Source: Microvirga ossetica
GTDB taxonomy: Bacteria; Pseudomonadota; Alphaproteobacteria; Rhizobiales; Beijerinckiaceae
Reading direction: 5' to 3'
Assembly: GCF_002741015.1 (NCBI RefSeq)
Contig: NZ_CP016616.1
Coordinates: forward strand, 2,451,501 to 2,515,500
Length of the DNA stretch: 64,000 nt
The number at the start of each line of letters is the position of its first letter. Positions within the stretch are counted from its first letter, which is position 1. Shown here one piece after another: positions 24,490-27,213 of this stretch. The translations under genes were made by a program, and so were the position numbers. The notes beneath the pieces are model-generated. The model was not told the DNA's origin. It saw only the letters and a list, made by a program, of their open reading frames with translations, and searched no databases.

Positions 24490-24509
24490 CGCGCAAAGGC
24501 CCACGGACG

Positions 24510-24538
24510 TTGACGTTCGCAGGTATCGCGTCTATAAG
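24510..24538 (+). promoter_or_regulatory. rpsT promoter
   Basis: TTGACG (24510-24515) and TATAAG (24533-24538) lie exactly 17 bp apart, giving a leader of about 120 nt before rpsT. This is one of the best promoter matches in the window. Confidence 0.7.
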
Positions 24539-24549
24539 CCGCCTCACAT

Positions 24550-24572
24550 GAGCCCGCGCGTCCCGCGGGCTC
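24550..24572 (+). promoter_or_regulatory. Perfect hairpin in the rpsT leader
   Basis: GAGCCCGCG/CGCGGGCTC forms a 9-bp perfect stem with loop CGTCC a few bases after the expected transcription start. No T tract follows, so it is not a terminator. A role in rpsT control is only a guess. Confidence 0.45.
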
Positions 24573-24664
24573 TTCGGTTTCCATGCAATCACCCGATCGG
24601 CGCCGAAGCTCTCGACAGGCTTGGGCTTGGCACATCGGGATTTTGAAAAGAACGAGGATGGGCC

Positions 24665-24931
24665 ATGGCCAACACCGTGTCCGCCAAGAAGATGACCCGC
24701 AAGATCGCAAAGCGCACCGCGATCAACAAGTCGCGTCGTAGCCGGATGCGGACCTTCGTCCGCAAGGTTGAAGAGGCGATCGCTGCCGGTAATCAGACCG
24801 AGGCCGCGGCCGCTCTGCGCGCCGCCGAGCCGGAGATGATGCGCGCCGCCCAGAAGGGCATCGTGCACAAGAACACCGCGTCGCGGAAGGTCTCGCGTCT
24901 GGCGAGCCGCATCAAGACGCTGAGCGCTTAA
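24665..24931 (+). CDS. rpsT: 30S ribosomal protein S20
   Basis: S20 binds 16S rRNA early in small-subunit assembly. The 88-residue basic protein starts [20 protein letters not shown] and contains the family core [20 protein letters not shown] and [20 protein letters not shown], predicted as a three-helix bundle. Length is normal. GAGGAUGGGCC precedes the start. It has its own promoter with 17-bp spacing and its own strong terminator, so it is monocistronic. Its place just before dnaA is conserved in Rhizobiales. Identification is firm. Confidence 0.97.
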
Positions 24932-24970
24932 GAAGCAGCTTCGACAGCTGTCTTTTTCATCGTCGATCAG

Positions 24971-24996
24971 ACCCGGCCGAGAGGCCGGGTTTTTTC
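24971..24996 (+). terminator. Intrinsic terminator after rpsT
   Basis: ACCCGGCC/GGCCGGGT with a short loop is followed by TTTTTC, 39 bp past the rpsT stop. Confidence 0.9.
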
Positions 24997-25710
24997 GTAT
25001 CCGAAGCCGGAATCCGCATCCAAATTTTATCCACACGGGAGCTTGACTTTATCCCCGACTGACCGGTTGAAAGCTCCACAGTTCGGTTTCAAACCGCACA
25101 TAAAAGAACCAGCCCGCTCAATAGGTTAGCAGGCAAAGCATCGCGAAGCATCAGAATCACCTACCGAGTCGAGGCGAATCGGTTCTGAATCAAGGTTGCG
25201 GAAAGACTCTTTTTTCAGGCCTGCGGACCGACTGTAGCGACACAGTGAATCAGTTGAAGAGTCAGGACTTTAAAGCCCCGATTCAAAACCTGTGGACGAG
25301 GCTGTGAACCCGATTGGAGGCTTGCAATGGCTCGCGACTCGACTCGGCCGTATTGCACCCCGTCGCGCACCCTGTGTAAGGTCAACCTGCTTCAACGGCT
25401 CGCCGTTAAGTCCTCACTCAAAGATCGAACTAAAACACCATAAGCGGGGGATCGGCCGTTGTTTCATTCTCTCAAGAAGCAAGCGAAGGCCCGTCCTTTA
25501 CCGAGAGGTAAACTTGATAGACCTTGAGTGAAGATAAAGGGGACGACAGTCAGTGAGCGTCTCCACTTAAAAGTGATCATATAATCTTTAGTACAATTGG
25601 GGGCGCCGCGCTTTGAATAACCTGTGAGCCATCTGTGCCTTGGTGTTCAAAGCGGGTCATGCGTGGGGGTTTCCGGCCTTGTAGGGTCGGGACCTCGTGG
25701 AGGAACATTG
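24997..25710. other. Gene-free region upstream of dnaA, candidate replication origin (oriC)
   Basis: About 714 bp without a convincing gene. It holds a perfect DnaA box TTATCCACA (25027-25035), a near-match TTATCCCCG (25049-25057), and the weaker reverse-strand match tgtggacga (25291-25299). It also holds ten GANTC sites at 25154-25345 and a TATAAT at 25580-25585 that may serve dnaA. A 79-codon open frame at 25292-25531 has no family features and looks accidental. The rpsT-dnaA gap is a likely origin in this lineage, but GC skew could not be computed. Confidence 0.5.
25154..25345. promoter_or_regulatory. Cluster of ten GANTC (CcrM) methylation sites
   Basis: GANTC occurs at 25154, 25166, 25176, 25187, 25205, 25247, 25259, 25280, 25336 and 25341, plus one outlier at 25010. 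By base composition one would expect about one per 250-300 bp. GANTC is methylated by CcrM in alphaproteobacteria. Confidence 0.7.
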
Positions 25711-27213
25711 ATGTATCGCAGCGAAGATCACCGCACCTTTGCCGCTCCCAGCGAGAACGGCAAGGAAGCTCCCGGCGAACAAATGGCATCGGATGTATGG
25801 GCGCGGGTGAAGCGCCGCCTCCGGGCCGAACTGGGCGAGGACATCTTCGCCAGCTGGTTCGGTCGCCTGGAGCTGGATTCGGTGGTCGAGGGCTGTGCCT
25901 ATCTGACGGTTCCCACCCGCTTCCTGAAGAGCTGGATCGAATCCCACTATGCCGATCGGGTGCTGGCGGTTTACCGCTCCGAGGCCGGCGATGTGGGGCG
26001 CATCTCCATCGGCGTGCGCAACACGCTTGGACGCGATCCGGCCGCCCAGCGCCGGACGAGCGAAGCCCCGCGCACGACACCGACCGCTTCGATGGCGATG
26101 CCCAGCATGACAAGCGAGATCAAGTCTCCCTCCATGGCGTCCGCCCACGAGGACCGCAGCGAGTCCGGCGATCTCGGCGGCGCGCCGCTCGATTCCCGCC
26201 TGACCTTCGACAGCTTCATCGTCGGCCGCTCCAATGCGCTCGCCCATGCGGCCGCCGACCGCGTCGCCCATGCCCAGAACGGCCAGGCCATCTACAACCC
26301 GCTCTATCTCCATGCGGGTGTGGGCCTCGGCAAGACGCATCTTCTGCATGCTATCGGCCACGAGGTGCGCGCGCAGGGACGCAGGGTGATCTATCTCACC
26401 GCCGACCGCTTCATGTACGGTTTCGTCGCCTCCCTGAAGGCGCAGACGTCGCTCGCCTTCAAGGAGCGCCTGCGTGGCATCGACCTGCTCGTCATCGACG
26501 ACGTGCAGTTCATCCAGGGCAAGCAGATCCAGCAGGAATTCGGCCACACGCTGAATGCCCTGATCGATGCGGGCCGCCAGATCGTCATCGCCGCGGACCG
26601 TCCGCCGGCCGATCTGGAAAATCTCGACGAGCGCGTGCGCTCGCGTCTTGCCGGCGGTCTCGTGGTCGAGGTCAGCGCGCTCGACGAGGCGCTGCGCACC
26701 TCGATCCTCACCACGCGCATCGATGCCCTGAAAACGATCCACCCCACCTTCGAGGTCGGCTCGAGCGTCATCGCCTATGTCGCCCGTGCCATCACCGCCA
26801 ACGGGCGCGATCTCGAAGGCGCGGTCAACCGCCTGCTCGCCCATGCGACGCTCACCAGTTCCGCGATCACCCTGGAAACCGCCGAGACCGCGATCCGCGA
26901 TCTCGTGCGCAACCGGGAGCCCAAGCGGGTCAAGATCGAGGATATCCAGAAGCTGGTGGCGTCCCGCTACAACGTCTCCCGCTCCGACATCCTGTCGGAG
27001 CGCCGCACCGCCGCCGTGGTGCGCCCGCGCCAGATCGCCATGTACCTGTCCAAGGTGCTGACCTTGCGTTCCCTGCCTGAGATCGGCCGCCGCTTCGGTG
27101 GGCGGGACCACACCACGGTGCTCCACGCCGTGCGCAAGATCGAGAAGGCCTTAGGCGAGGACCACGCCCTCTCCGACGAGGTCGAGCTCCTCAAGCGGAT
27201 GCTGCAGGAGTAA
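25711..27213 (+). CDS. dnaA: Chromosomal replication initiator protein DnaA
   Basis: DnaA binds DnaA boxes and opens the origin. The 500-residue protein has all four domains: domain I ([28 protein letters not shown]), a long Ser/Met/Pro-rich linker domain II (about residues 110-160), the AAA+ domain III with Walker [11 protein letters not shown] and Walker [10 protein letters not shown], and domain IV with the DnaA-box reader [15 protein letters not shown]. The open frame extends 29 codons further upstream, but ATG at 25711 has a strong GGAGGAAC site and gives the family start. The preceding 0.7 kb holds DnaA boxes. dnaN follows after 136 bp, which contains a GC hairpin at 27222-27241. Confidence 0.97.

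Follow-up and report, generated by a model that had tools for sequence, protein, structure and literature searches.

A genus-wide cluster of GANTC sites upstream of dnaA in Microvirga: a candidate control region for the CcrM system

The dnaA promoter of Caulobacter crescentus contains about two GANTC sites. Excerpts of two studies place GANTC within the regulatory region of this gene, together with CcrM, GcrA and DnaA boxes nearby (PMC2217572, PMC3973325), an arrangement shared by the Microvirga locus described here; unlike Caulobacter, Microvirga carries ten sites in 192 bp, situated well ahead of the inferred proximal promoter, and their putative role is read from sequence. The methylation state of GANTC was reported to act directly on dnaA transcription in Caulobacter (PMC3973325), and PMC2217572 and PMC4287350 likewise describe this transcription as dependent on it (all as excerpted). 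According to the excerpts of PMC2217572, dnaA is seemingly activated by full methylation, the effect being minor and DnaA nearly constant, and is repressed by GcrA, while the portion of PMC3667746 consulted gives steady-state DnaA as unchanged upon the loss of CcrM. The GcrA-CcrM promoters ctrA P1, mipZ and podJ also carry GANTC, and half of the Microvirga sites fit the extended motif YGAKTCK, but those promoters have only one or two sites, close to the transcription start (excerpts of PMC4287350 and PMC3667746).

Two further systems link clustered methylation sites to replication. At the Agrobacterium repABC/ori2, where CcrM and GcrA operate, several GANTC in replication-control DNA have been tied to timing, although this origin is of the plasmid type, its three parts each containing three GANTC, and does not concern dnaA (PMC11514494, in excerpt). 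In E. coli, dense methylation sites occupy the same two kinds of locus as in Microvirga, about ten at each, the dnaA promoter having eight GATC and oriC eleven (PMC10073500, in excerpt). The Dam/SeqA system nevertheless differs in its methylase, its motif (GATC versus GANTC) and its cell-cycle logic, and a search of the host genome for SeqA (PF03925), whose control recovered the E. coli protein, returned no match in Microvirga. Alphaproteobacterial genomes have been reported to be depleted of GANTC with a relative excess between genes (PMC3973325), and in a survey of 37 such genomes, cell-cycle genes averaged 0.4-1.5 sites in their 500-bp promoters (PMC2877005), both statements being taken from excerpts. 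No paper dealing with Microvirga together with GANTC was found in the literature searched, and the titles and abstract openings of part of the literature matches held no description of a GANTC cluster at dnaA.

The locus lies in a window of 64,000 nucleotides, this being the whole stretch of DNA analysed, which corresponds to positions 2451501-2515500 of a 5.84 Mb contig in the six-contig, 9.63 Mb genome of Microvirga ossetica. The dnaA gene occupies 25711..27213 on the plus strand, counted from a conserved ATG at 25711 (the longest frame begins at a GTG at 25624), and its product shares 95% identity with DnaA of Microvirga lupini Lut6. Its co-directional upstream neighbour is an open reading frame at 24665..24931 (plus strand), which by its sequence is probably rpsT, encoding ribosomal protein S20. 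An intrinsic-terminator-like hairpin follows at 24969..24992 (plus strand; 10 pairs, 7 of them G-C, with a T-rich tail), as a consensus match only. An earlier note on this DNA had counted ten GANTC in 192 bp and a perfect DnaA box some 120 bp away. All ten are present within 25154-25345 (at 25154, 25166, 25176, 25187, 25205, 25247, 25259, 25280, 25336 and 25341), and the box, TTATCCACA, stands at 25027..25035 on the plus strand, 118 bases ahead of the first site. The rpsT-dnaA gap holds an eleventh GANTC at 25010. The word TTNAA was also seen nine times in the gap at 24932-25623, against 0.94 predicted from the window rate, and its copies within 25140-25350 are poorly kept among relatives (0.25).

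The cluster is real, unusual and conserved. The motif is generally depleted in the window, where 134 GANTC were counted in total and dinucleotide shuffles averaged 375. Simulated Markov sequences never reached ten sites per 192 bp: the largest count was 8 among 2000 built on the gap and 7 among 2000 built on the window. The density of GANTC in the genome was sampled from 80 stretches of 20 kb plus the window, amounting to 1.66 Mb or about 17% of the genome, with 73 stretches drawn from the 5.84 Mb contig and 7 from the other five, and one 8.5 kb overlap counted twice. Among the 3101 sites of this sample, the next densest 200-bp stretches held five GANTC, a number attained only in the hemE gap and at L195:9636, L136:9317 and L115:7277; counting by 200-bp windows, a check suggested in the earlier note for the whole genome, produced no rival above five within this sample. 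The GcrA motif YGAKTCK, read on one strand, was matched by 5 of the 10 cluster sites versus 469 of 2228 sites in 60 of the 80 genome stretches. No preference for YGAKTCK was found in Brevundimonas (PMC7987155), and the extended motif is thus not universal.

Comparison of the rpsT-dnaA gap among related genomes revealed that the cluster is kept across the genus. The gap was readable in 39 of 40 Microvirga-labelled loci (L014 starts at dnaA), and its densest 200 bp held 4-10 GANTC in each of these and in the window (40/40). With the exception of L034, L035 and L039, this stretch starts 544-560 bp ahead of the dnaA ATG. The maximum in the rest of each locus is 2-5 GANTC, which equals the cluster in L031 and L032. 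Of 48 genus genomes, 47 gave a single match to the cluster element, some of the matches being short. Across the 40 aligned sequences, window included, the four sites of the first subcluster (25154..25191) are intact in 34, 28, 39 and 39, and the two of the second, 12 bp apart (25247..25263), in 39 and 38. The site at 25205..25209 is less conserved (9/40), that at 25280..25284 is intact in 18, and the pair at 25336..25345, which adjoins the sequence TTGCAC at 25353, in 18 and 28, respectively; none of these sites is assigned a strand. A further GANTC, at column 25086, is missing in the window and present in 24 of the 40. The DnaA box at 25027-25035 has a mean column identity of 0.997 over 37 aligned Microvirga rows (L034, L035 and L039 excluded).

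Given that the whole gap is conserved, with a mean column identity of 0.78-0.81 in most blocks, the retention of GANTC is partly shared with the neighbouring bases. The four outer bases were retained at a mean of 0.74 at GANTC sites versus 0.49 elsewhere in 25100-25420. In 21 diverged relatives, GANTC was the commonest of 256 gapped words (mean of 6.0 per 211 bp, the next word having 3.2). Four gapped words were present in four or more copies, and their retention was 0.65 for AANCA, 0.60 for GANTC, 0.40 for GANGC and 0.25 for TTNAA. At site 25166, the four outer bases are retained in 30-36 of the 40 sequences whereas the middle base varies (G16 T12 C8 A4), a pattern that suggests selection acting on the methylation motif as such; the middle base of site 25187 is A in 33 and T in 7. 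The middle base is invariant at 25247 and 25259, as are the following two bases at 25259, so that no signal of motif selection is seen there and these sites could belong to longer ones.

The earlier note had also read helical phasing into the distances between sites. The spacing of the first four, being 11 or 12, 10 and 11 bp (12-10-11 in the window), recurs in 26 of the 40 aligned sequences, the remainder displaying a 22-11 remnant (eight), a 10-11 spacing (two) or a different one (four). This spacing is conserved, partly by descent. A period test returned P values of 0.015 at 10.5 bp, 0.22 at 10 bp and 0.99 at 11 bp, and P 0.24 once the period was scanned from 9.5 to 11.55 bp. The recurrence of the first spacing within the genus was hence upheld, and helical phasing of all ten sites in whole turns across the cluster was set aside as not established.

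Outside the genus, the 800 bp ahead of dnaA contained no 200-bp stretch with more than four GANTC in 28 readable loci (P 0.135 or more), drawn from an order sample of the best-scoring 30 of 120 genomes, host included, from which L148 was dropped since its contig starts at dnaA. In a set of 40 loci tested (L039-L078 and L080, leaving out L073 for its short upstream sequence), P fell below 0.05 in five (L055, L060, L061, L078 and L080) where two were expected by chance, so that some Methylobacteriaceae and Bosea may have weaker clusters upstream of dnaA. L039, a locus labelled Microvirga, had 4 sites, with P 0.11.

Both CcrM and GcrA, the methylase and reader that the earlier note had invoked, are encoded in the genome. 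The one CcrM orthologue is a 398-amino-acid frame (L087:598-1794) with a RAMA domain and a DPPY motif, which aligns with the solved CcrM structure PDB 6pbd over residues 46-395 (E 1.7e-148) and scores 605.9 bits against the NCBIfam CcrM model, under its cut-off of 830. A full-length GcrA at C1:1707617 scored above the cut-off for PF07750 (188 bits) and under that of 280 for NCBIfam GcrA (178.5 bits). As both proteins score below their NCBIfam cut-offs, they were called from alignment and domain content. Nine partial GcrA-like matches were observed beside the full gene, on contigs C1 to C5, two of them with an internal stop, and the beginning of the gcrA frame, at 1363, is surrounded by four GANTC in a span of under 200 bp (L083:1194-1390). 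The earlier note had named three observations that would speak against its reading, namely comparable density elsewhere, a lack of conservation in relatives and the absence of a CcrM gene; each was looked for and none was found, the first within about 17% of the genome.

The promoters of dnaA bear on how the cluster could act. A TATAAT...TACAAT block at 25580..25603 (plus strand) is the inferred proximal promoter, proposed from its conservation in the alignment and a promoter-like score. The putative mRNA leader at 25604..25710 (plus strand) carries hairpins up to the ribosome-binding site, for which compensatory changes were recorded: across 23 sequences, 12 of 20 predicted pairs change on both sides at least once, as a raw count not set against shuffles. 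Single-sequence fold z-scores of the leader were mixed (0.37 for the window, then -1.11, -2.23 and -2.44), and no Rfam family reached gathering scores in 24500-26200; the conserved hairpins may represent a translational control element. A sigma-70 consensus scan of 24900-25800 returned no match, and a conservation-weighted promoter scan gave weak candidates only, the best-scoring one on the minus strand from 25296, inside the cluster. The conserved TTGCAC at 25353 is a weak candidate for a distal -35 element on the plus strand. The cluster sits about 240-440 bp upstream of the inferred proximal promoter, within about 50 bp of which (25580-25603) no GANTC occurs, the pair 25336/25341 adjoining the weak distal candidate; the excerpts of a Caulobacter start-site study counted GANTC only up to 50 bp from the start (PMC4287350). 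Because the proximal promoter and the leader lie about 235 bp or more 3' of the last site, either a further promoter exists or the array acts at a distance, and no precedent for the action of GANTC from such a distance was found in the literature searched. A possible inverted repeat, CACTCAA / TTGAGTG (25415-25423 and 25522-25533, about 100 bp apart), was noticed by eye between the cluster and the inferred promoter, and is longer in the alignment consensus.

Chromosome origins in alphaproteobacteria typically lie beside hemE, with CtrA boxes, a DnaA box, an AT-rich end and a GC-skew minimum. In the host genome, hemE is found at 2728442, 251 kb from dnaA, and the gap upstream of it features two TTAA-N7-TTAA CtrA boxes, a perfect DnaA box and an AT-rich end. 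The cumulative GC skew, a noisy curve spanning 2.30-2.92 Mb of the 5.84 Mb contig with 4501 bases uncovered, reaches its minimum at 2718198, which is 10 kb from hemE and 241 kb from dnaA. The chromosome origin is probably on the hemE side. Nine GANTC were observed at L082:1105-1480, before hemE and outside the window, three of them 8 bp apart near the AT-rich end. The 450 bp ahead of the hemE match contained 5-13 GANTC (median 10) in all 31 Microvirga loci compared, these being the best 30 of 40 matching genus genomes plus the host locus; a CtrA box was present in 27 of them and a DnaA box in 17. The corresponding gap in 30 loci from other families of the order (the best 30 of 59 matching genomes among 61, full upstream flanks confirmed, L284 included) had 0-7 GANTC (median 2), five or more being present in 7; the difference gave a Mann-Whitney P of 5e-11 with kinship ignored. 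By these counts, Microvirga is enriched for GANTC at both its probable origin and dnaA. The Caulobacter origin is likewise described as containing several GANTC motifs (PMC3973325), making the origin-side enrichment a matter of degree. With the hemE-side gap having a conserved cluster of its own, the comparison with E. coli GATC clusters drawn in the earlier note fits better than first thought, and the arrangement, judged by its layout, resembles the replication-limiting one of E. coli.

With CcrM and GcrA encoded, the densest cluster found and its conservation throughout the genus, a control region of dnaA of the CcrM type is the best reading, and the cluster is somewhat more probably than otherwise a CcrM-dependent, replication-timed control region of Microvirga dnaA. 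The sites, conserved and unmatched within the sample, the genes for CcrM and GcrA and the hemE-side cluster are observed; the methylation itself, its timing, its reader and the direction of its effect we infer. Every site of the cluster would be methylated on both strands at cell birth. Once replication had started from the hemE-side origin, the fork would soon reach dnaA, 251 kb away, and its passage would leave the entire cluster hemimethylated at once, until CcrM works late in the cycle. The two states would be occupied differently by a methylation-sensitive reader, for which GcrA together with sigma-70 RNA polymerase is the likeliest candidate, and this change of occupancy would shift dnaA transcription in step with replication. 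Many clustered sites would be expected to give a steeper response than one.

The earlier note had left room for the zone to belong either to the origin or to the dnaA promoter. Its methylation-sensitive control of dnaA stands as the best reading, backed by CcrM, GcrA, density and conservation; its origin half does not, as the hemE gap and the skew minimum lie some 240-250 kb away, which makes the dnaA cluster very unlikely to be the chromosome origin. The perfect DnaA box, TGTGGA words at 25075 and 25291 and a lower GC content of 0.51 could be cited for an origin in the rpsT-dnaA region itself, but the skew minimum at a distance of 241 kb and the CtrA boxes, DnaA box and AT-rich end before hemE oppose it, no TTAA-N7-TTAA was found in the rpsT-dnaA gap, and this highly improbable candidate was rejected on these grounds. 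That the cluster arose by chance carries a negligible probability in view of the 0/2000 simulated gaps and its conservation across the genus. It is also quite unlikely that the GANTC sites are incidental, lying within the sites of other proteins such as MucR, DnaA or a repressor, with methylation either irrelevant or prevented by a bound protein that shields them. The conservation of the entire gap, and of 25247 and 25259 past the motif, agrees with such incidental sites, as do six MucR-type matches in the genome, MucR being a protein that shields GANTC in Caulobacter and Sinorhizobium (PMC5172544, in excerpt). The free variation of the middle base at 25166, the A or T at 25187 and the extra GANTC at other columns such as 25086, despite the depletion of the motif measured in the window, argue the other way.

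The clusters at both loci bring in sequestration as another explanation, whereby a protein would bind hemimethylated GANTC cooperatively at the hemE-side origin and at dnaA and silence both after firing, in the manner of SeqA. Dense conserved clusters at both Microvirga loci, which most of the compared loci from other families of the order are without, and the E. coli precedent with its GATC counts speak for it, and the close spacing of the sites would suit cooperative binding. It is nevertheless unlikely: with no SeqA match in the genome, the reader is purely hypothetical; in minimal medium, replication is normal in Caulobacter cells lacking CcrM, and the authors of that study concluded that CcrM does not have this role of Dam (PMC3973325); and late-cycle CcrM alone would keep the sites hemimethylated, so that shielding seems needless. 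A broader idea, which we hold to be somewhat unlikely, is that Microvirga has evolved, independently of SeqA, a clustering of another methylation motif at origin and dnaA as a joint once-per-cycle switch, read by a sensor of hemimethylation or by cooperative GcrA.

Returning to CcrM-dependent control of dnaA, the Microvirga cluster is most likely a variant of the control known in Caulobacter. The density of CcrM-type sites at both loci, dnaA and the probable origin, would offer a natural test of whether a CcrM system can be recruited to the role of Dam in replication control. Set against the one or two sites of the known examples, Microvirga would show an array of sites serving as the unit of control.
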